Shown one piece after another: positions 4,407 through 63,328 of a stretch of 64,000 bases of DNA (position 1 is its first letter; each line of letters begins with the position of its first letter). A program made the position numbers and the translations under genes. Location: contig NZ_BPFX01000035.1 in NCBI RefSeq assembly GCF_019655855.1, positions 12,164-76,163 on the forward strand, written 5' to 3'. This DNA is from Pseudomonas paralcaligenes. GTDB taxonomy: Bacteria > Pseudomonadota > Gammaproteobacteria > Pseudomonadales > Pseudomonadaceae. The notes under the pieces are model-generated. The model did not search any database and was not told where the DNA came from. It saw nothing but the letters and a program-made list of their open reading frames with translations.

Positions 4407-5951
4407 TTACCAGGTTTGGGTGGCCTTGAACTTCTCGATACCGGCTTTCAGCTGGCCATCGATGTCGTCATTGAAGTCGCCCTTCTCGTTGATCTTCGCC
4501 ATCAGAGCGGCGTTCTCACGGTTGAAGTAGGCGATCAGGGCCTGCTCGAAGCTGATGATCTTGGCGACTTCGACGTCGGCCAGGAAACCACGCTCGGCGG
4601 CATACAGGCTCACCGACATGTCGGCGATGGACATCGGCGCGTACTGCTTCTGCTTCATCAGCTCGGTAACGCGTTGACCGTGATCCAGCTGCTTGCGGGT
4701 AGCTTCGTCCAGGTCGGAAGCGAACTGGGCGAAGGCCGCCAGTTCACGGTACTGAGCCAGAGCGGTACGGATGCCACCGGAGAGCTTCTTGATGATCTTG
4801 GTCTGAGCGGCACCACCCACGCGGGAAACCGAGATACCGGCGTTGACGGCCGGACGGATACCCGAGTTGAACATGGCCGATTCCAGGAAGATCTGACCGT
4901 CGGTGATGGAAATCACGTTGGTCGGAACGAACGCGGAAACGTCGCCAGCCTGGGTTTCGATGATCGGCAGAGCGGTCAGGGAACCGGTCTTGCCAGTCAC
5001 GGCGCCATTGGTGAACTTCTCGACGTACTCTTCGGAAACGCGGGAAGCGCGCTCCAGCAGACGGCTGTGGAGATAGAACACGTCGCCCGGGTAGGCTTCG
5101 CGGCCCGGCGGACGGCGCAGCAGCAGGGATATCTGGCGGTAGGCAACGGCCTGCTTGGACAGGTCGTCGTACACGATCAGGGCGTCTTCACCGCGGTCGC
5201 GGAAGTATTCGCCCATGGTGCAACCGGCGTACGGCGCGAGGAACTGCAGGGCAGCCGACTCGGACGCGGACGCGGCGACAACGATGGTGTTGGCCAGGGC
5301 ACCGGCTTCTTCCAGCTTGCGAACCACGTTGGCGATGGTCGATTGCTTCTGACCGATGGCTACGTAGACGCAGCGGATGCCGCTGTTCTTCTGGTTGATG
5401 ATGGCGTCGACGGCCAGGGCGGTCTTGCCGATCTGACGGTCACCGATGATCAGCTCGCGCTGGCCACGGCCTACCGGGATCATGGCATCGACCGACTTGT
5501 AGCCGGTCTGTACCGGCTGGTCGACCGACTTACGCCAGATCACGCCCGGAGCGACTTTCTCGACGGCGTCGGTGGCTTGAGCATTGATCGGGCCTTTGCC
5601 ATCGATCGGGTTGCCCAGGGCATCGACCACGCGGCCCAGCAGTTCCGGACCAACCGGGACTTCCAGGATGCGGCCGGTGCACTTGGCGCTCATGCCTTCG
5701 GCGAGGCTGGTGTATGCACCCAGCACTACGGCGCCGACGGAGTCTTGCTCCAGGTTCAGCGCCATACCGTAGACGCCGCCCGGGAACTCGATCATTTCGC
5801 CGTACATGACGTCGGCCAGACCGTAGATACGCACGATACCGTCGGAGACGGATACCACGGTACCTTCGTTGCGGGCTTGGGAAGAGACGTCGAGTTTCTC
5901 GATACGCCCCTTGATGATTTCACTAATTTCGGAAGGATTGAGTTGCTGCAT
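4407..5951 (-). CDS. atpA: ATP synthase alpha subunit
   Basis: Non-catalytic nucleotide-binding subunit of F1, three copies alternating with beta. The 514-residue protein has the P-loop GDRQIGKT at residues about 170-177 and the alpha-family segment [14 protein letters not shown] near residue 365. The start [14 protein letters not shown] is the usual Pseudomonas N-terminus. Operon order is conserved. Confidence 0.98.
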
Positions 5952-20456: not shown

Positions 20457-23976
<3,520 letters not shown>

Positions 23977-23994
23977 TCGGTTCGCTGTAAAAGG

Positions 23995-24023
23995 AAAACC
24001 CCGGTCCAGTGCCGGGGTTTTTT
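23995..24023 (+). terminator. Terminator of gyrB
   Basis: Perfect 10-bp stem AAAACCCCGG / CCGGGGTTTT followed by more Ts, 18 bp past the gyrB stop. Confidence 0.9.
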
Positions 24024-24024
24024 A

Positions 24025-24215
24025 TTGCAGGGTGAGTAGCCAAAGGCTTACACGCGAAGGCGGAAAGGGACTCTGCCCTCCCGCTCGGGCGTTGGCTAAT
24101 CTAGCCACACCTACCGGGAATAAGGATGTCCCGGGTCAAGGAAGACAGGCCGCGCCAGGATGGCAAACGACAGGATGTCGGAAGGTCGCGAAAAACCCGC
24201 TTCGGCGGGTTTTTT
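24025..24215 (+). ncRNA. Candidate Rsm/CsrB-type small RNA (RsmA-sequestering)
   Basis: No coding gene lies here. Between the gyrB terminator and a second strong terminator there are eight GGA triplets. Four successive short hairpins put GGA in the loop: CCGGGA-ATAAGGATG-TCCCGG (24114-24134), GTC-AAGGAA-GAC (24135-24146), GCC-AGGAT-GGC (24154-24164) and CGAC-AGGAT-GTCG (24168-24180). ANGGA in a hairpin loop is the known RsmA/CsrA binding motif. The 3-prime end is a CCCGC-TTCG-GCGGG terminator with six Ts (24196-24215). Upstream, CTTACA at 24047-24052 is half of a GacA-type site; the other half is poor. A core RNA starting near 24108 would be about 108 nt, the size of RsmX/Y/Z; a start just after gyrB would give about 190 nt. 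P. aeruginosa RsmV is reported as 192 nt with four sites; I cannot tell if this is its orthologue. Confidence 0.7.
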
Positions 24216-24241
24216 GTTGCCCGCCATTCATGGCAGCGGTT

Positions 24242-24305
24242 GTAGAGTGCGCGGGGCCGCCCAGGCTGTGCGCACCGGAGGCTTGGGCGGCCCCGCGCAC
24301 CCTAC
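24242..24305. repeat. Palindromic repeat, GTAGRGTGCGC family, copy 1
   Basis: Two 22-bp arms (24242-24263 and 24284-24305) pair with a single mismatch. The ends read GTAGAGTGCGC and GCGCACCCTAC, the same ends as the elements at 35634 and 63266. It abuts the 3-prime end of the CdsA-like gene. Confidence 0.8.
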
Positions 24306-24309
24306 GGCC

Positions 24310-25242
24310 TCAAGCCCACCAATAGCGCACGAAGTGGAAGAAGATCGGCGCCGCGAAGCAGACCGAGTCCATGCGGTCGAGCATGCCGCCGTGGCCTTCG
24401 ATCATGTGGCCCCAGTCCTTCACCCCCCGGTCGCGCTTGATCGCGGACATCACCAGGCCACCGGCGAAGCCGAGCAGGTTGACCACCAGCGCCATCAGCG
24501 CCGCCTGCCAGAAGCTGAACGGCGTGATCCAGAACAGGGACGCGCCCACCAGGCTGGCCAGTGCCACGCCTCCGACGAAGCCCTCGACGGTCTTGGAGGG
24601 CGACAGCTTGGGCGCGATCTTGTGTTTGCCGGCCAGCTTGCCGCAGACGTATTGCAGCACGTCGGAGAGCTGCACCACCAGGATCAGCCAGGCGATCAGC
24701 AGAAGGTTGCGCCCTTCGTATCCGGGGATGTCCAGCGTCAGCAGCGCCGGAACCGCGGACACGCAGTACACCGCGATCATCAGTCCCCACTGCACTTTCG
24801 AGGCCCGCTCCAGGAAGCGTGTGGTATCGCCGCCCAGCGACGCCAGGATCGGCAGCAGCAGGAACAGATAGACGGGAATGAAGATGGCGAACAGGCCGTA
24901 CCAGTCCAGGGCGATCAGCAGGTACTGCATCGGCAGCGCGAAATAGAAGGCCGCGGCCAGCGCCGGATAGTCGCTGCGTCGGGTCGGCGTCAGGGTGAGG
25001 AACTCGCGCAGGGCGTAGAAGGAGACGAAGTAGAACAGCAGGATCACGCCGTTGTTGCCGAACAGGAAGGCGAGGCCGATCACCAGCACCATGGCCCACC
25101 AGGCGTCGATCCGCGCGTTGAGGTTCTCGATCACCGCGTTGGGCGTCTGGCCCGCCCGGTGGCGCAGCACCCGGGCGATCAGGGTAGCCAGCAGGAGTAC
25201 GGCGCCGATGCCGGCGAACAGCAGGATTGTATTGCGATCCAT
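24310..25242 (-). CDS. CdsA-like phosphatidate cytidylyltransferase (YnbB type)
   Basis: Predicted to make CDP-diacylglycerol from CTP and phosphatidic acid in the inner membrane. The 310-residue protein has about eight hydrophobic segments and the full CdsA signature near its C-terminus (SAIKRDRGVKD followed by GHGGMLDRMD). From memory it resembles E. coli YnbB more than the housekeeping CdsA, including the C-terminal FFxFxRYxx. It is last of a three-gene minus-strand unit, 1 bp after the acyltransferase stop. P. aeruginosa has a similar trio around PA2536-PA2541, so this looks like an accessory copy of a lipid-remodelling set, not the essential cdsA. Confidence 0.85.
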   Translation of the reverse strand: MDRNTILLFAGIGAVLLLATLIARVLRHRAGQTPNAVIENLNARIDAWWAMVLVIGLAFLFGNNGVILLFYFVSFYALREFLTLTPTRRSDYPALAAAFYFALPMQYLLIALDWYGLFAIFIPVYLFLLLPILASLGGDTTRFLERASKVQWGLMIAVYCVSAVPALLTLDIPGYEGRNLLLIAWLILVVQLSDVLQYVCGKLAGKHKIAPKLSPSKTVEGFVGGVALASLVGASLFWITPFSFWQAALMALVVNLLGFAGGLVMSAIKRDRGVKDWGHMIEGHGGMLDRMDSVCFAAPIFFHFVRYWWA

Positions 25243-35633: not shown

Positions 35634-35695
35634 GTCGTAGGGTGCGCCGCGCGCACCGCCTCCAAGCCATCGGTGCGCACGGCGCACCCTACGAC
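35634..35695. repeat. Palindromic repeat, GTAGGGTGCGC family, copy 2
   Basis: Perfect 16-bp arms GTCGTAGGGTGCGCCG and CGGCGCACCCTACGAC with a second, inner pairing CGCACCG / CGGTGCG. It starts 18 bp after the receptor stop and could act as a terminator-like stem. Confidence 0.85.
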
Positions 35696-45375: not shown

Positions 45376-46344
45376 ATGGACGACCTCAGCCCCTCCGACC
45401 TCAAGTCGATCCTCCACTCCAAGCGCGCCAACCTCTACTACCTGCAGCACTGCCGGGTGCTGGTCAATGGCGGTCGGGTCGAGTACGTCACCGACGCCGG
45501 CAAGCAGTCGCTGTACTGGAATATCCCGATTGCCAACACCACCACGTTGCTGCTCGGCACCGGCACCTCGATCACCCAGGCGGCGATGCGCGAACTGGCC
45601 AAGGCCGGTGTGCTGGTGGGTTTCTGTGGCGGTGGCGGCACGCCGCTGTTCTCGGCCAACGAGATGGACGTGGAGGTCGCCTGGTTCTCGCCGCAGAGCG
45701 AATACCGGCCCACCGAATACCTGCAACGCTGGGTGAAATTCTGGTTCGATGACGGCAAGCGTCTGGAGGCCGCCAAGGCTTTCCAGCTCGCCCGCCTGCA
45801 GCGTATCCGCGACGGCTGGCTGAACAGCCGGCCGCTGAAGGATGCCGGATTCCGGGTGGATGCCGGCGCCCTCGAACGCGCCCTGGAGGCGTCGCAAGGC
45901 GCCATCCAGGCTGCGCCGGACAACACCTTTCTGCTCACCGAGGAAGCGCGTCTGAGCAAGCAACTGTTCGCCCTGGCGGCTCGTGCGGTGAACTATGGCG
46001 ATTTCACCCGCGCCAAGAACGGCTCCGGCGGCGACCCGGCCAACCGCTTCCTCGACCACGGCAACTACCTGGCCTATGGCCTGGCCGCCAGCGCCACCTG
46101 GGTGCTCGGCATCCCCCACGGCCTGGCCGTGCTGCACGGCAAGACCCGGCGCGGCGGCCTGGTCTTCGACGTGGCCGACCTGGTCAAGGACGCCACCATC
46201 CTGCCGCAGGCCTTCGTCAGCGCGGTGCGTGGCGACGAGGAACAGGAGTTCCGCCAGGCCTGCATCGAGAACCTGACCCGCAACGAGTCGCTGGACTTCA
46301 TGATCGACACCCTCAAGGCCGTGGCCGAGCGGGTCGGCGCATGA
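45376..46344 (+). CDS. cas1: CRISPR-associated integrase Cas1 (type I-F)
   Basis: Integrates new spacers at the array leader, in complex with the Cas2 part of Cas2-3. The 322-residue protein begins MDDLSPSDLKSILHSKRANL and keeps all four metal-site residues at the numbering known for P. aeruginosa Cas1: Glu190, His254, Asp265 and Asp268 (motif LHGKTRRGGLVFDVAD). It starts 64 bp after tsaC and overlaps cas2-3 by 4 bp. Confidence 0.98.
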   Translation: MDDLSPSDLKSILHSKRANLYYLQHCRVLVNGGRVEYVTDAGKQSLYWNIPIANTTTLLLGTGTSITQAAMRELAKAGVLVGFCGGGGTPLFSANEMDVEVAWFSPQSEYRPTEYLQRWVKFWFDDGKRLEAAKAFQLARLQRIRDGWLNSRPLKDAGFRVDAGALERALEASQGAIQAAPDNTFLLTEEARLSKQLFALAARAVNYGDFTRAKNGSGGDPANRFLDHGNYLAYGLAASATWVLGIPHGLAVLHGKTRRGGLVFDVADLVKDATILPQAFVSAVRGDEEQEFRQACIENLTRNESLDFMIDTLKAVAERVGA

Positions 46345-49300
46345 ATGTCCTGCTGATCAGCCAGTGCGACAAGCGCGCCTTGGTGGAAAGCCGGCGCATC
46401 CTCGACCAGTTCGCCGAGCGCCGTGGCGAACGTACCTGGCAGACGCCGATCACCCAGGCCGGCCTCGATACCCTGCGCAAGCTGCTGAAGAAGACCGCCC
46501 GGCGCAACACCGCCGTGGCCTGCCACTGGATTCGCGGCAAGGACCACAGCGAACTGCTGTGGATCGTCGGCGACGCCAGCCGCTTCAACGAACAGGGCGC
46601 GGTGCCGACCAACACCACCCGCCGCGACGTGCTGCGCAGGGACGACGAGAACGACTGGCACACCGGTGAGGACATCCGGCTGCTGGCGCAGATGGCGGCG
46701 CTGTTCCACGACATCGGTAAGGCCAACACCGCCTTTCAGGCCAAGCTGCGTGGCAAGGGGCCACTGGCCGACGCCTATCGCCACGAGTGGGTGTCACTGC
46801 GCCTGTTCGAAGCCTTCGTCGGCAGCGATAGCAGCGACGCGAACTGGCTGCAGCGCCTGATCGACGGCGACGATGAAGACTGGCTGGCACGCCTGCGTGC
46901 CGATCACCCGCAGACGCAGCCCAGCCCCTTCATCAAACAGCACCTGCCGCCGCTGGCCCAGGCAATCGGCTGGCTGATTGTCAGTCACCACCGCCTGCCC
47001 ACCAACGACCTGGCGGCGCCGGGTCTGAAGATGCTGCCAACTCCGATACGGGCCGACTGGTGTGGCGCACGCAGTGAAGCCAGTGCGCAGGAGAAGGCCG
47101 CTTGCTGGCAGTTCCCGTCCGGCCATCTTCCGTTTGCCAGTGCCGCCTGGAACAAGCGCGTCGCCACCTGCGCCCAGGCCTTGCTGGAGCGACCCGGCCT
47201 GCTGCAACAGGCGGACAGGCTGCTGGCCGATCCCTACGTCATGCACCTGTCACGCCTGGTGCTGATGCTCGCCGACCACCACTATTCGAGCCTACCCGCC
47301 AATCCGCGCCTGGGTGCGCCAGACTTTCCCGCCCACGCCAATACCAACAAGGACGGCACGCTCAAACAGCGCCTCGACGAACACCTGCTCGGTGTCGCCC
47401 AAGGCGCGCGACGCATCGTCGGCCTGTTGCCGCGCCTGGAGCGCAGCCTGCCACGCATCGCCCGGCACAAGGGTTTCAAGCGCCGCGCCACGGACGAGCG
47501 CTTCCGCTGGCAAGACAAGGCCTTCGACCTGGCCTGCAGCCTGCGCGAAGCCTCCACCCGGCAGGGTTTCTTCGGCATCAACCTGGCGTCCACCGGCTGC
47601 GGCAAGACCCTGGCCAACGGGCGCATCCTCTATGCCCTGGCCGACCCGCAGCGCGGTGCGCGCTTTTCCATCGCCCTCGGTCTGCGCACGCTTACCCTGC
47701 AGACGGGCGAAGCCTATCGGGAAAAACTCGGCCTGGACGAGGACGACCTGGCCATCCGCGTCGGCGGCACGGCGGTGCGTGAGCTGTTCGAGCTGAACGC
47801 ACGCGAGCGTCACGCCGCAGCGCAGGGCAGCGAGTCGGCGGCCGGCCTGCTGGACAACGGCCACGTGCACTACGAGGCCAACCTGGAAGACGGACCGCTG
47901 AAGGACTGGCTGCAGCACGATCCGCTGGCGCACAAGCTGGTTAGCGCGCCCGTGCTGGCCTGCACCGTGGATCACCTGATCCCGGCCTGCGAAAGCACCC
48001 GTGGCGGCCGGCAGATCGCGCCGATGCTGCGCCTGCTCACCTCCGATCTGGTACTGGACGAGCCGGACGATTTCGATCTGGCCGACCTGCCCGCGCTGAC
48101 CCGCTTGGTGCACTGGGCCGGGCTGCTCGGCAGCCGCGTGCTGCTGTCCTCCGCGACCCTGCCGCCGGCCCTGGTGCGCGGGCTGTTCGAGGCCTATCGC
48201 GCCGGACGCGCCGTCTACCGCCAGCATCGCGGCGAGCCGGGCGGCACGGCCGACATCTGCTGCGCCTGGTTCGACGAGTTCGGCTGCCGGACGTCGAGCC
48301 ACGCGGACGGAGAGAGTTTCGCCAGGCAGCACGGCGCCTTTATCGACACACGCCTAGCCGCCTTGAGCAGGCAGCCCGTGCGCCGTCGCGCCCGTATCGT
48401 GCCCATCGCCAGCAGTAGCCGCGAACGCGGCACGATTTGCTCCGAGCTGGCCGGACAACTCCCCACCTGGATGAACGAGCTGCACTGGCAGCATCACAGC
48501 ACCGCAGCCGACGGCCGGCGCGTCAGCTTCGGTCTGCTGCGCCTGGCCAATATCGACCCGCTGATCGAGCTGGCCCAGGCGCTCCACGCCCAGGGCGCCC
48601 CCGAGGGTATGCGCCTGCACCTGTGCGTGTATCACTCGCGCTTTCCATTGCTGCTGCGCTCGGTCATCGAACGACAACTGGATACGCTGCTGCGTCGGCA
48701 TGAGCCACAGGCGATATTCGAGCAGCCGGCCGTGCGCGATGCCCTGGCCCGCTACCCGGAAACCGACCAACTGTTCGTCGTGCTCGCCTCGCCGGTGGCG
48801 GAAGTGGGCCGCGATCACGATTACGACTGGGCCATCGTCGAGCCTTCTTCGATGCGTTCGATCATCCAGTTGGCCGGGCGCATTCGCCGCCATCGGCCTG
48901 GCGCCTGCGAGGGCGACAACCTCTACCTGCTGTCGCACAACCTCCAGGCCCTGCAGGGCGCGCCGGTCGCCTTCACCCGCCCAGGTTTCGAGAGCGAGGC
49001 TTGGCGTCTGGCCAGCCATGACCTGCGCGAGCTGCTGCCAGCCGAGGCACTGGCCATCGACGCCGCGCCACGCATCGTCGAGGTGAGCGCCTTGCAGCCC
49101 GGAACCCGCCTGGTGGATCTGGAACACGCCCGCCTGCGCGCCGACCTGCTGGCCGAGGGTGCCAGCAACACCGCCTTCACCGCACCGCTCTGGTGGCAGA
49201 GCCCTGCTTCGCTCAGCGGCGTCATGCAAAAGCAGCAACCCTTTCGCCAGGGCCGTCCGCAGCTCGATTACGCCCTCTTGCCCGATGCGGATGACGAGTT

Positions 49301-49583
49301 GCCGTTTACCTTCCATCGCGACGAGGGCGATGGCACCTGGCGAGCGTTGGACAATCTGCGCGCCGAGTTGCCTCTCGAGTACGGTGCCCGTATCCACAGC
49401 TGGGGGCATGCCGGCTATGAGGCCGAGTTGAGCGCGCTGGCCGAGCGCCAGGGCTTGAGCCTGCGTGTCTGCGCCATGCGCTACGGAGGCATCAGCCTCG
49501 ATTGCGCACGTAACGACAGCGGCACGCTGACGGATCGTCCATGGTGTTGGAACCCGCATCTCGGCTTTGCCCGCAGCAAATAA
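46341..49583 (+). CDS. cas3: Cas2-Cas3 fusion, nuclease-helicase (type I-F)
   Basis: Degrades DNA bound by the Csy complex and scaffolds Cas1 in adaptation. In 1080 residues: an N-terminal Cas2-like domain (about 1-95), an HD nuclease domain with His123-Asp124, His148 and His216-His217, and an SF2 helicase with Walker A STGCGKT (417-423), DEPD (573-576), SAT (604-606) and the QLAGRIRRHRPG motif VI near 855. A C-terminal accessory domain follows. All key residues are present, so it should be active. Size matches the known I-F fusion. Followed by a 196-bp leader, unlike the tight packing elsewhere in the locus. Confidence 0.98.
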   Translation: MNVLLISQCDKRALVESRRILDQFAERRGERTWQTPITQAGLDTLRKLLKKTARRNTAVACHWIRGKDHSELLWIVGDASRFNEQGAVPTNTTRRDVLRRDDENDWHTGEDIRLLAQMAALFHDIGKANTAFQAKLRGKGPLADAYRHEWVSLRLFEAFVGSDSSDANWLQRLIDGDDEDWLARLRADHPQTQPSPFIKQHLPPLAQAIGWLIVSHHRLPTNDLAAPGLKMLPTPIRADWCGARSEASAQEKAACWQFPSGHLPFASAAWNKRVATCAQALLERPGLLQQADRLLADPYVMHLSRLVLMLADHHYSSLPANPRLGAPDFPAHANTNKDGTLKQRLDEHLLGVAQGARRIVGLLPRLERSLPRIARHKGFKRRATDERFRWQDKAFDLACSLREASTRQGFFGINLASTGCGKTLANGRILYALADPQRGARFSIALGLRTLTLQTGEAYREKLGLDEDDLAIRVGGTAVRELFELNARERHAAAQGSESAAGLLDNGHVHYEANLEDGPLKDWLQHDPLAHKLVSAPVLACTVDHLIPACESTRGGRQIAPMLRLLTSDLVLDEPDDFDLADLPALTRLVHWAGLLGSRVLLSSATLPPALVRGLFEAYRAGRAVYRQHRGEPGGTADICCAWFDEFGCRTSSHADGESFARQHGAFIDTRLAALSRQPVRRRARIVPIASSSRERGTICSELAGQLPTWMNELHWQHHSTAADGRRVSFGLLRLANIDPLIELAQALHAQGAPEGMRLHLCVYHSRFPLLLRSVIERQLDTLLRRHEPQAIFEQPAVRDALARYPETDQLFVVLASPVAEVGRDHDYDWAIVEPSSMRSIIQLAGRIRRHRPGACEGDNLYLLSHNLQALQGAPVAFTRPGFESEAWRLASHDLRELLPAEALAIDAAPRIVEVSALQPGTRLVDLEHARLRADLLAEGASNTAFTAPLWWQSPASLSGVMQKQQPFRQGRPQLDYALLPDADDELPFTFHRDEGDGTWRALDNLRAELPLEYGARIHSWGHAGYEAELSALAERQGLSLRVCAMRYGGISLDCARNDSGTLTDRPWCWNPHLGFARSK

Positions 49584-49779
49584 TCCTCCTGGGGCGAGGC
49601 TGTTTGTCTGGAAAGCATATTGGAAAGCACTCCATAGCTGACTCGCGAGCGTGAACAGCCAGCGTGCTTTGGTCGCAGCTCCTCTTCCTTGTACAGGATA
49701 TGGCCATTGGCTATGTTCGAGGCGTGGATAAACCGGGAAGCCAACCCGGAGCGATCCATATCCAACAAGGAGGTGCCTT
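49584..49779 (+). promoter_or_regulatory. Structured leader between cas2-3 and csy1
   Basis: No gene seen. Three inverted repeats: AAAGCAC 49624-49630 / GTGCTTT 49664-49670; an outer pair GGATATGG 49696-49703 / CCATATCC 49756-49763; and inside it CCGGG 49733-49737 / CCCGG 49745-49749. The outer right arm ends 3 bases before the AAGGAGG ribosome site of csy1 (49767-49773). It may hold an internal promoter; the best I see (TTGGTC-17-TACAGG) is weak. Confidence 0.5.
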
Positions 49780-51096
49780 TTGAGCAACGCTGCTCCCACG
49801 ACGGCCGCCGCACTCCGCGACCTGATCCAGACCTTCATCCACACCCGCCTGCAGGCCAAGCTCGACAAGCTGGCCGCCGACGACCCCAAACGCCAGCAAC
49901 TGCTCGACGACCATCGCCCCGCCGCCTGGCTCGCCGATGCCGCACGGCGCGTCTCCCAGATCCAGCTCGCCACCCATACCCTCAAGCCCATCCACCCGGA
50001 TGCACGCGGCAGCAACCTGCATGCGCCGCCTGCCGACGTCGAATTGCCCGGCCTGGTCTCCAGCCATTGCCTGGTCGGGCACTGGGACGATGACGTAGTG
50101 GGCAACGCGGCGGCGCTGGACGTGTTCAAGTTCCTCAAGCTGGAGCATGACGGCCGCAGCCTGCTGCAACGCATTCTGGAACACGACGCCGACCTGCTCG
50201 CCGCCCTCAGCGACGATGCCGGGCAGGCCGAAGCCTGGCGCGCCAGTTTCTCCGCCATTACCGAAAGCCGTGGGCCGGCGGCCTCCCATACCTTGGCCAA
50301 GCAGGTCTACTTCCCTTTGCCGGATGGCGGCTATCACCTGCTGGCGCCGCTATTCCCCACCAGCCTGGTGCACCGCGTGCAACAACACATGCGCGAGGAT
50401 CGCTTCGGCGAGGCGGCCAAAGTGGCGAGGGATGCGCGGAAGGGTCGGCAGCCATCCGAGCATGGCTACTGCGAATACCTAGACCTGGCGATCCAGAAAT
50501 TCGGAGGTACCAAGCCGCAGAACATCTCGCAACTCAACAACGAGCGCTACGGCGAAAACTGGCTGCTCGCCTCACTGCCACCGCAGTGGCGCACACTCGA
50601 TCTGCGCCCACCACTACGATGGGATTCAGCCTTCGATTTCCTCTACCGCAACGACAAGACACTACGTGCCCGCGTGGCCGAGTTGCAGCACTTCCTGCGC
50701 ATGACGATGCACAACAACTGGCAGATCCGCCGCAAGCGCGCCCGCCTTCTCGGCGAGATTGCCGATGCCTTCCACCAATTCGCCGCCGAACTGCTGGAAG
50801 CCAACCGTAGCGAGGCGCTGGCCGCCGGCTGGAGCGCCCATCCCGACTGCCGTCTGGACGACAGCGAGCGGCACTGGCTCGACCCGCTGCGCGCTCATGA
50901 TGATGCAGATTTCCGCAGCAGTCACCTGTGGCGCGATTGGCCCGAGCAGGCCAGCAAACGCTTCGGCAACTGGCTCAACGGCAAGCTCGATCACGATGCC
51001 CTGCGCCTGGGCCAAGCCGAAGCCGAGCACTGGCGTGGCGTGCTGCACGACGAACTGAGGATGTTCAAGGAGACGCTCGACGATGGACGCGCCTGA
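49780..51096 (+). CDS. csy1: Csy1 (Cas8f), large subunit of the type I-F surveillance complex
   Basis: With Csy2 it binds the 5-prime handle of the crRNA and helps recognise the PAM. The 438-residue protein matches the family in length and order. The start is TTG at 49780 (MSNAAPTTAAALRDLIQTFI), supported by a perfect AAGGAGG six bases upstream; no ATG is nearby. It overlaps csy2 by 14 bp. Confidence 0.95.
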   Translation: MSNAAPTTAAALRDLIQTFIHTRLQAKLDKLAADDPKRQQLLDDHRPAAWLADAARRVSQIQLATHTLKPIHPDARGSNLHAPPADVELPGLVSSHCLVGHWDDDVVGNAAALDVFKFLKLEHDGRSLLQRILEHDADLLAALSDDAGQAEAWRASFSAITESRGPAASHTLAKQVYFPLPDGGYHLLAPLFPTSLVHRVQQHMREDRFGEAAKVARDARKGRQPSEHGYCEYLDLAIQKFGGTKPQNISQLNNERYGENWLLASLPPQWRTLDLRPPLRWDSAFDFLYRNDKTLRARVAELQHFLRMTMHNNWQIRRKRARLLGEIADAFHQFAAELLEANRSEALAAGWSAHPDCRLDDSERHWLDPLRAHDDADFRSSHLWRDWPEQASKRFGNWLNGKLDHDALRLGQAEAEHWRGVLHDELRMFKETLDDGRA

Positions 51097-52057
51097 AGCC
51101 CTGCTCCTGCTGCCGCGCTTGCGCGTGCAGAATGCCAACGCCATTTCCGGCCCGCTGACCTGGGGCTTTCCCGCCGTTACCGCCTTTACCGGCTTCGTCC
51201 ATGCCCTGCAGCGCAAGCTGTGCGAGGACATGGATATCAGCCTGGATGGCGTGGCCATCGTCTGCCACCAGCACCAGACGCAGACTTCGCAACCCGCCGG
51301 CAAGCGCACTCGGGTGTTCCACCTGACGCGCAACCCGGTCGGCAAGGATGGCGGCACGGCCGCCATCGTCGAAGAAGGTCGCCTGCACCTGGAGATTAGC
51401 CTGCTGGTCGGCGTATCCGGCGGAGTGCTCTACGAGGGCGTGCTGGATAACGCGACCATCGCCCAACGCGCCTGGGATACCGCCCTCGGTATGCGCCTGG
51501 CCGGAGGCAGCCTGCTGCCACCGACCTGGAGGCTGGGCGAACGCAGCCAGCCCTCGCTCGCACCCTGGCCCGGCACCTTCGAGGAAGAATCCAGGCTCAG
51601 CCGCCGCCTGGCGCGCCGCCTGCTGCCCGGCTTCGCCCTGATTCCGCGCGACGACCTGCTGGCGCGCCATACCGCCATTCTGCAGGAGAAGGACGCCAGC
51701 CTGACCAGCCTCGATGCCCTGCTCGACCTCTCGCGCCTGAACGTCGAACCGCCCGGCTCGCCGGATGAAAACGGCGAACCACGTCAAGACTGGCAAGTGC
51801 GCCAGCGCTCGGGCTGGCTGGTGCCGATCCCGCTGGGCTACCGCTCGCTATCGGCCCACGCGCCCGGCGGCGTGCGCAATGCCCGCGACCGCAACGTGCC
51901 GTTCCACTTCGTCGAAAGCCTCTACGGCCTCGGCGAATGGCGCAGCCCGCTGCGCTTCAGCGATATCCGCCAGTTGCTCTGGTATCACCAGGTCGAGCCC
52001 GAGGCCGGCCTGTACCGTTGCACCACACCCTTTCTCGATCTCGACGCCCACGCATAA
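51083..52057 (+). CDS. csy2: Csy2 (Cas5f), tail subunit of the type I-F complex
   Basis: Forms a heterodimer with Csy1 on the crRNA 5-prime handle. The 324-residue protein begins MDAPEALLLLPRLRVQNANAI with the family segment SGPLTWGFPAVTAFTGFVHAL near residues 25-45, part of the RNA-recognition fold. Translationally coupled to csy1 by overlap; csy3 follows by 12 bp. Confidence 0.96.
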   Translation: MDAPEALLLLPRLRVQNANAISGPLTWGFPAVTAFTGFVHALQRKLCEDMDISLDGVAIVCHQHQTQTSQPAGKRTRVFHLTRNPVGKDGGTAAIVEEGRLHLEISLLVGVSGGVLYEGVLDNATIAQRAWDTALGMRLAGGSLLPPTWRLGERSQPSLAPWPGTFEEESRLSRRLARRLLPGFALIPRDDLLARHTAILQEKDASLTSLDALLDLSRLNVEPPGSPDENGEPRQDWQVRQRSGWLVPIPLGYRSLSAHAPGGVRNARDRNVPFHFVESLYGLGEWRSPLRFSDIRQLLWYHQVEPEAGLYRCTTPFLDLDAHA

Positions 52058-52069
52058 GGACATCCGATC

Positions 52070-53128
52070 ATGGCCAAGAACAGCGAACTGACCACTGCCT
52101 CCGTACTCGCCTTCGAGCGCAAGCTCGACCCCTCCGACGCCCTGCTCTATGCCGGTCGCTGGAACGAACGCGACGCCGGCACCTGGCAGCCCGTGCAAAT
52201 CCGCGAGAAGTCCGTGCGCGGCACCATCTCCAACCGCCTCAAGACCAAGGATCGCGACCCGGCCAAGCTGGATGCCTCGATCCAGGCGCCCAACCTGCAG
52301 ACCGTCGACGTTGCCGCCCTGCCCGCCGATGCCGACACCCTCAAGGTACGCTTCACCCTGCGCGTGCTGGGCGGCGCCGGCACGCCCTCGGCCTGCAACG
52401 ATGCCGACTACCAGGCCAGGCTGCTGGCCACCGTGCAGGGCTACGTGAGCAGGCATGGCTTCGCCGAACTGGGCCGGCGCTACGCCGCCAACCTGGCCAA
52501 TGGCCGTTTCCTCTGGCGCAACCGAATCGGTGCCGAAGCCGTCGAGGTACGGATTGCTCGCCTGCAGGGTGGCGAGGCGGCCCAGACCTGGACGTTCGAC
52601 GGCCTGGCGCCGTCGCTGCGGACGTTCGTCGCCCACGCCGATGTCGACAGCCTGGGCCAAGTGATCGCCGATGGCTTGGCCGGCAAAGGTCACCTGCTAC
52701 TGGAAGTGGTGGCCTTCGTGCGCATCGGCGACGGCCAGGAAGTCTTCCCCTCGCAGGAACTGATCCTCGATCGTGGCGACAAGAAAGGTCAGAAGAGCAA
52801 GACGCTCTATCACGTACGTGACGTGGCCGCGATCCACTCGCAGAAGATCGGCAACGCCCTGCGCACCATCGACACCTGGTACCCGGACGCCGGCGAACTC
52901 GGCCCTATCGCCGTCGAGCCCTACGGCTCCGTCACCTCCCAGGGCAAGGCCTACCGCCAGCCAAACCCAGGTAAGGATGAAAATGGCAAACCCAGGCAAG
53001 CGCTGGACTTCTACAGCCTGTTCGACGGCTGGGTGCTCAACGATGCCGTGCCAAGCCCTGAGCAGCAGCACTATGTGATTGCCAACCTGATCCGTGGCGG
53101 CGTATTCGGTGCCGCCGAGGAGAAGTAG
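52070..53128 (+). CDS. csy3: Csy3 (Cas7f), backbone subunit of the type I-F complex
   Basis: Six copies polymerise along the crRNA spacer. The 352-residue protein starts [19 protein letters not shown] and has the family-typical glycine-rich stretch ([20 protein letters not shown] near residue 137). Length close to the family (about 340). Good spacing to csy4 (2 bp). Confidence 0.97.
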
Positions 53129-53130
53129 CC

Positions 53131-53694
53131 ATGGATCACTATCTCGACCTGACACTGCTGCCAGATCCGGAATTTCCGGTCACGCAGCTGATGAGCGCGT
53201 TGATTGCCAAGCTGCACCGGGGGTTGCACGACCTGCGTCGTACCGATGTGGGCATCAGCTTTCCCGAGGTGGAGACAGCCAAGCATGGTCTGGGCTCGCG
53301 GCTGCGGCTGCATGGCCCGGCCGCAGCACTGGATAGCCTGCTGGCGCTGAATTGGTTGAGCGGCATGCGTGACCACCTGCACCTGGGTGAGCTGGCACCG
53401 ATCCCGGCAAAGGTGAGCTGGCGCTGCGTCAGCCGGGTGCAGGTGGACAGCAATCCAGAACGCGCCCGCCGTCGTCTGATCAAGCGTCACGGTTTCAGCG
53501 AGGAGGAGGCGCACCGGCGCATTCCTGACAGCGCCGCCAAGCGTTGCGACCTGCCCTATGTGGCACTGCGCAGCAACGGCAATGGCAATGGTTTCCGCCT
53601 CTTCATCCGCCATGGACCGCTGCTCGGTGCTCCTACCACGGGTTCGTTCGGTGCCTACGGCCTCAGCGCCGAGGCTAGTATCCCCTGGTTCTGA
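53131..53694 (+). CDS. csy4: Csy4 (Cas6f), CRISPR RNA endonuclease
   Basis: Cuts the repeat transcript at the base of its hairpin and stays bound to the 3-prime handle. The 187-residue protein starts MDHYLDLTLLPDPEFPVTQLM and has the catalytic histidine at position 29 and the arginine-rich helix (NPERARRRLIKRHGFSEEEA near 110) that reads the stem-loop. It ends YGLSAEASIPWF, as the family does. The array begins 130 bp downstream with the CTGCC-GTATA-GGCAG hairpin this enzyme recognises. Confidence 0.98.
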   Translation: MDHYLDLTLLPDPEFPVTQLMSALIAKLHRGLHDLRRTDVGISFPEVETAKHGLGSRLRLHGPAAALDSLLALNWLSGMRDHLHLGELAPIPAKVSWRCVSRVQVDSNPERARRRLIKRHGFSEEEAHRRIPDSAAKRCDLPYVALRSNGNGNGFRLFIRHGPLLGAPTTGSFGAYGLSAEASIPWF

Positions 53695-53824
53695 CCCTTT
53701 TTCTCACCCTCAAGCCGAGCCCTTGCAAAATCAATCACTTGCAAGCGGCTCCGGAAAGAGGGTGAAACGGTGGGAAATAGGGAAGGCTCTTTTATAATCA
53801 GATAGTTAGTGTGTTTGAATTCTA
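53695..53824 (+). promoter_or_regulatory. CRISPR leader with IHF site inside nested inverted repeats
   Basis: AATCAATCACTTG (53729-53741) is a perfect match to the IHF consensus WATCAA-N4-TTR. It lies in the centre of three nested inverted repeats: TCACCCTC 53704-53711 / GAGGGTGA 53758-53765; AGCCG 53713-53717 / CGGCT 53746-53750; CTTGC 53722-53726 / GCAAG 53741-53745. A perfect TATAAT at 53793-53798 is a likely -10 for array transcription. The outer stem could also end the csy transcript. Confidence 0.75.
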
Positions 53825-54097
53825 CTTCACTGCCGTATAGGCAGCTCAGAAATCGCGCCGTTGGTGTAAGCCCCCGGGCGCCAGCTTCACTGCCGTATAG
53901 GCAGCTCAGAAAGGCCGACGACTGGACGCCGAACGCCTCGGTGACTTCACTGCCGTATAGGCAGCTCAGAAATGGCAGCGCGTGACGTGCTGCAGCAGCT
54001 GGTCCTTCACTGCCGTATAGGCAGCTCAGAAAGTCATCCTCCGGCGGGCACTCGTGGTCGTAGTCTTCATTGCCGTAGCCGCATAGGCAGCTCAGAA
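53825..54097 (+). CRISPR. Type I-F CRISPR array, 5 repeats and 4 spacers
   Basis: Repeats of 28 bp, from CTTCACTGCCGTATAGG to CAGCTCAGAAA, at 53825, 53885, 53945 and 54005 are identical. Spacers are 32 bp each: 53853-53884, 53913-53944, 53973-54004 and 54033-54064. The repeat holds the Cas6f stem CTGCC-GTATA-GGCAG. The fifth repeat (54065-54097) is degenerate: C to T in the stem, a 6-nt tandem duplication (GCCGTA-GCCGCA) that enlarges the loop, and a changed last base. Degeneration at the far end and the leader at the csy4 side fix the direction. I found no second array near cas1. Confidence 0.98.
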
Positions 54098-63265: not shown

Positions 63266-63328
63266 GTAGGGTGCGCCGTGCGCACCGGCAAGCCCGTACA
63301 TGGCCCCGGTGCGCACGGCGCACCCTAC
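63266..63328. repeat. Palindromic repeat, GTAGGGTGCGC family, copy 3
   Basis: Perfect 23-bp arms (63266-63288 and 63306-63328), starting GTAGGGTGCGCCGTGCGC, with a 17-nt loop. It ends at the base before the stop codon of the LysR gene, so it probably also acts as its 3-prime stem. Confidence 0.9.

Follow-up and report, generated by a model that had tools for sequence, protein, structure and literature searches.

What does the DNA directly behind gyrB encode in Pseudomonas paralcaligenes? Within the 64,000-nucleotide stretch that we analysed (the window), an earlier note had proposed a sponge RNA for RsmA/CsrA proteins at 24025-24215, about 190 nt long and possibly akin to RsmV of P. aeruginosa. 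Searches with Rfam models, the check suggested there, bear out that an RNA gene of this class lies downstream of gyrB. The rsmX model RF02144 matches over its whole length (1-114 of 114) at window positions 24109-24215 on the + strand, scoring 72.5 bits against a cut-off of 56, and the E value of 1.1e-13 in 351 bases is far beyond chance. The RsmY model stays under its cut-off at the same locus (29.6 bits, cut-off 57). We put the probability that 24109-24215 is an rsmX gene, encoding a GacA-driven RsmA sponge, at about 0.95; judged by sequence, structure model and promoter, it is a canonical rsmX. The proposed extent has to be revised. By the rsmX match the RNA starts at 24109 and is about 107 nt long, and of the 191 bases first described the leading 84 are promoter and the other 107 RNA. 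The features are as follows.

23993..24023, + strand: terminator-like hairpin between gyrB and rsmX (fold of 23992-24030: -19.6 kcal/mol, z -4.14)
24035..24052, + strand: GacA-type upstream activating sequence of 18 bp, AGTAGCCAAAGGCTTACA, 57-74 bp ahead of the predicted start
24097..24102, + strand: -10 box TAATCT (TAATCT in 26 of 30 aligned sequences; the remaining 4 have TACTCT or TAACCT)
24109..24215, + strand: rsmX small RNA of about 107 nt (RF02144 match; 5' end predicted)
24114..24134, + strand: hairpin 1, loop AUAAGGAUG (rsmX model and fold of the 107-nt RNA; loop GGA in 23/23 orthologs)
24135..24146, + strand: hairpin 2, loop AAGGAA (rsmX model and fold of the 107-nt RNA; GGA in 23/23)
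24154..24164, + strand: hairpin 3, loop AGGAU (191-nt fold and rsmX model, absent from the 107-nt fold; GGA in 23/23)
24168..24180, + strand: hairpin 4, loop AGGAU (191-nt fold and rsmX model, absent from the 107-nt fold; GGA in 23/23)
24196..24215, + strand: intrinsic terminator with UUCG loop and U run (both folds and rsmX model)

The eight GGA triplets counted earlier in 24025-24215 are all present, six within the RNA and two upstream of it. Likewise, the four hairpins with GGA in the loop and the UUCG-loop terminator were placed correctly, the hairpins fit the rsmX covariance model, and hairpins 3 and 4 do share an AGGAU loop while differing in their stems. The motif ANGGA in full occurs only twice within the RNA. 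The loop GGAs at 24124, 24140, 24158 and 24173, whose loss among relatives was to count against the gene, are retained in all 23 orthologs, as is the GGA at the hairpin 4 junction (24180). The 191-nt stretch folds better than its shuffles (z -2.70, 3 of 200 equal), and so does the 107-nt RNA (z -2.38, 5 of 200 equal). Folded alone, the 107-nt RNA forms hairpins 1 and 2 and the terminator, and the regions of hairpins 3 and 4 pair otherwise; as first described, these two hairpins are supported by the longer fold and by the rsmX family model.

We examined covariation in 30 sequences, comprising the 23 orthologs and seven distant copies. Six pairs (11 cells) changed on both sides; shuffles gave 2.1 and 2.5, with 0 of 500 as high. 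Three of the six pairs sit in hairpin 1, a part misaligned in the distant copies. The outermost pair of hairpin 2 changes from G-C to A-U in 5 of the 30. Further pair types numbered 13, not above the 13.4 of the shuffles. Among the 23 orthologs alone, 2 pairs (3 cells) changed on both sides; 17 of 500 shuffles attained this pair count and 6 this cell count, and further pair types came to 5 against 5.5. Covariation within the close group is thus weak, as these orthologs vary too little. The misalignment of hairpin 1 in the distant copies also made the per-site GGA counts of the first alignment artefacts for hairpin 1 and for 24180, and the later ortholog counts given above replace them.

Alignment of the promoter in the window, its 22 orthologs and seven more distant rsmX copies shows that the spacing from box to -10 is exactly 44 nt in 30/30 sequences. 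Across the 23 orthologs, the top base has a mean frequency of 0.93 for the box, 0.97 for the -10, 0.71 for the spacer and 0.94 for the RNA, falling to 0.53 and 0.56 in the stretches outside. The window box is identical to that of two relatives (L125, L127) at 16 of 18 positions, and a search allowing up to three mismatches returns this sole place in the window (0.00 expected). Consensus scans of 23900-24350 for a strict sigma-70 promoter and for a simple terminator gave no site of either kind. The CTTACA half site at 24047-24052 had been recognized before, together with its degenerate left half, and both observations stand. The doubt about GacA control drawn from them loses ground, since the left half is degenerate in all aligned relatives too; on the promoter sequence, GacA control of the window rsmX is to be expected rather than doubtful. 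Set against the published GacA palindrome TGTAAG-N6-CTTACA (PMC4950607, in excerpt), the window box is perfect in the right half only. It agrees at 14 of 18 positions, counted by hand, with the box printed for P. brassicacearum rsmX as TATAGCGAAACGCTTACA, a species in which two rsmX copies are reported to be exclusively GacA-dependent (PMC7911923, in excerpt).

How far does the gene extend beyond this genome? Of 298 genomes of the genus, 178 contain an RF02144 match above the cut-off, against 0 of 14 control genomes. A DNA search with 24020-24225 at E 0.001 matched 394 of 398 genomes, mostly partially, and we took as orthologs the 23 of 398 (own genome included) with a match at E 2.2e-29 or below, set apart from the next genome, whose best E value was 2.9e-19. 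With flanks of about 1.5 kb included, 22 of the 23 ortholog loci show a match to gyrB or to the cdsA-like gene, 10 of them to gyrB itself; L118 has neither. Four more distant genomes (G059, G137, G184, G241) likewise carry rsmX between gyrB and lptA, and in G008, G012 and G063 gyrB and rsmX stand some 8-10 kb apart. The interval from gyrB to cdsA or lptA can serve as a syntenic address for finding rsmX in part of the genus.

Adjacency to gyrB as a rule for the whole genus is unsupported. No rsmX over the cut-off was found in 60 further stretches downstream of gyrB and at most 5 kb long, in some of which cdsA adjoins gyrB, a non-random set picked mostly by GyrB similarity among 149 genomes, with 78 of the 149 left out and two stretches shortened by a contig end; a 5-kb stretch would overlook the 8-10 kb spacing described above. 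Ten named gyrB loci, examined out of a set of 80 (L002, L003, L004, L006, L007, L008, L010, L012, L015 and L065), likewise hold no rsmX. In three genomes of the genus, CrcZ (RF01675) is found no more than 5 kb past gyrB (L203:906-1285, L208:3469-3845, L168:6513-6885).

At least 14 of the 23 ortholog genomes harbor a second rsmX-like copy elsewhere. Three of the 14 loci concerned (L149, L151 and L155 of L149-L162) score 82.1-84.2 bits with RF02144, and the remaining ones were identified by DNA similarity. Neither gyrB of the window nor its neighbours matched anything in the 14 stretches. The copy at L151 (about 5816-5923) stands next to ORFs resembling a glucosyltransferase H and a cytochrome b561. 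An RF02144 search of the window's own genome, a 351-contig assembly, found one rsmX only and no second copy.

Two other kinds of element in the window caught our attention. Pairs of GTAGGGTGCGC in opposite orientation occur at 24236-24310, 35637-35692 and 63266-63328, with a mismatch in one copy of the first pair; they resemble REP sequences or a small mobile element of palindromic form. Between rsmX and the cdsA-like gene, the two copies of the first pair enclose a long hairpin with nearly perfect pairing (-65.1 kcal/mol). The ORFs at 45376-54033 resemble a type I-F CRISPR-Cas set, and beside them stand four 28-nt repeats that match RF01317.

That rsmX and gyrB lie on the same strand raises the question of whether the RNA arises mainly by processing of the gyrB mRNA 3' end, with a sponge level that tracks gyrB transcription. 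In the window, gyrB and the box are parted by a strong hairpin that has a T run; counting the window, 7 of the 10 loci in which gyrB could be reached show, by eye, a similar hairpin in this place. At three of these ten (L113, L122, L124) the box begins 3 nt past the gyrB stop, leaving no room for a gyrB terminator, so that rsmX may end the gyrB mRNA there; this position is the sole uncommon feature of the case. The layout of these three loci suggests that the rsmX terminator may double as the gyrB mRNA end, which makes the three relatives a simple test case of a sponge RNA serving as an mRNA 3' end. For the RNA of the window we hold an origin mainly by processing of gyrB mRNA to be very unlikely, given the intervening hairpin and an rsmX copy with its own conserved promoter. 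A broader proposal is that the site behind gyrB is no accident: read-through from gyrB, a gene that responds to DNA supercoiling in its transcription, would feed the Rsm sponge pool, and in the sub-lineage whose box directly follows the gyrB stop, gyrB would share the terminator of rsmX and the 3' end of its mRNA would bind RsmA. This we regard as improbable.

Could the RNA nevertheless begin near 24025, as a 190-nt sponge with additional GGAs in its 5' part? The 191-nt stretch folds well and offers two more GGAs, at 24062-24070. By the rsmX match these fall in promoter DNA, and each of the remaining 29 aligned sequences carries between 0 and 2 GGAs in that region. Furthermore, 24053-24096 is conserved less than the RNA (0.71 against 0.94), and the supposed 5' part contains the box and the -10 at their fixed spacing. 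The long RNA was rejected on conservation, and we give it hardly any credence.

The gyrB gene of PAO1 is located near the origin. RsmV of this strain is 192 nt long, at 1,011,621-1,011,812 (PMC9308961, in excerpt), and is described as Gac-independent (PMC7366521, in excerpt). RsmV (RF04320) and the window rsmX are alike as GGA-loop sponges and belong to the same Rfam clan, CL00106, and two other genomes do have an RsmV-family RNA at most 5 kb past gyrB (L240:3805-3995, 183.3 bits; L245:2423-2613, 126.5 bits). A GacA-independent relative of RsmV at the window locus, the kinship once suspected, is nonetheless extremely unlikely. The window RNA measures about 107 nt by match and promoter position, it has a GacA-type box, and RF04320 finds nothing at the locus; the best score in the whole genome is 12.4 bits, elsewhere, against a cut-off of 100, and on this search we ruled the kinship out. 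RsmV and RsmW were termed apparently P. aeruginosa-specific in 2020 (PMC7366521, in excerpt); the RNAs of the two other genomes indicate that RsmV is probably not confined to that species.

The probability that the stretch is coding or chance sequence is practically nil: ORFs of 138 and 413 codons cross it, but the larger is antisense to the cdsA-like gene, an Rfam match of this strength is not expected by chance, and single-base indels separate the orthologs, on which ground the coding reading was rejected.

Returning to the rsmX gene, the same genome encodes the partners that such an RNA would work with. We found one RsmY (98.8 bits) and one RsmZ (88.1 bits), both over their cut-offs, two proteins of the CsrA family and, above the NCBIfam cut-off, one GacA/UvrY-type regulator. 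From their sequences we take one CsrA-family protein to be RsmA, and the other looks RsmN/RsmF-like. GacA-type boxes also stand ahead of rsmY and rsmZ, starting about 75 and about 190 bp upstream of the Rfam matches. The window rsmX thus adds to the Gac/Rsm parts of one genome, namely RsmY, RsmZ, RsmA, a second CsrA-family protein and a GacA-type regulator. Family membership, conservation of the promoter elements and loops, and presence of the partner genes are established here.

Transcription, GacA control and protein binding of the window rsmX are taken over from the family. The promoter would be switched on by phosphorylated GacA bound to the 18-bp box, which lies 57-74 bp before the start, and an RNA of about 107 nt would be made, terminating at the UUCG hairpin. 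This RNA would offer GGA in four hairpin loops and once more at the hairpin 4 junction, binding RsmA dimers and probably also the RsmN/RsmF-like protein, and mRNAs repressed by RsmA-type proteins would be set free. In such a cell, the window rsmX would raise the sponge dose alongside RsmY and RsmZ.

The locus looks like a real gene, yet an ordinary member of the well-known rsmX family and new as an instance only. Multiple rsmX copies have been described in P. mendocina ymp and P. stutzeri A1501 (PMC4950607, citing Moll 2010, in excerpt); these strains are presumably not far from the genome of the window, so rsmX would not be new to this part of the genus. In the portions available to us of the literature on rsmX, RsmV, gyrB, mendocina and oleovorans, we found no description of an rsmX position behind gyrB. 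With the rsmX RNAs known from P. protegens, P. syringae and P. brassicacearum, the window copy shares the full-length RF02144 match, the GGA hairpins, the terminator and the 18-bp box with its perfect right half. It differs from known rsmX in sitting between gyrB and a cdsA-like gene and in its score, 72.5 bits against up to 125.7 among the members listed, and the loop of its hairpin 1 is one base longer than in its 22 orthologs. The second rsmX-like copies of close relatives (L149-L162) belong to the same family and occupy another genomic place, whereas RsmY (RF00195) and RsmZ (RF00166) share the function class of the window rsmX and constitute other families.
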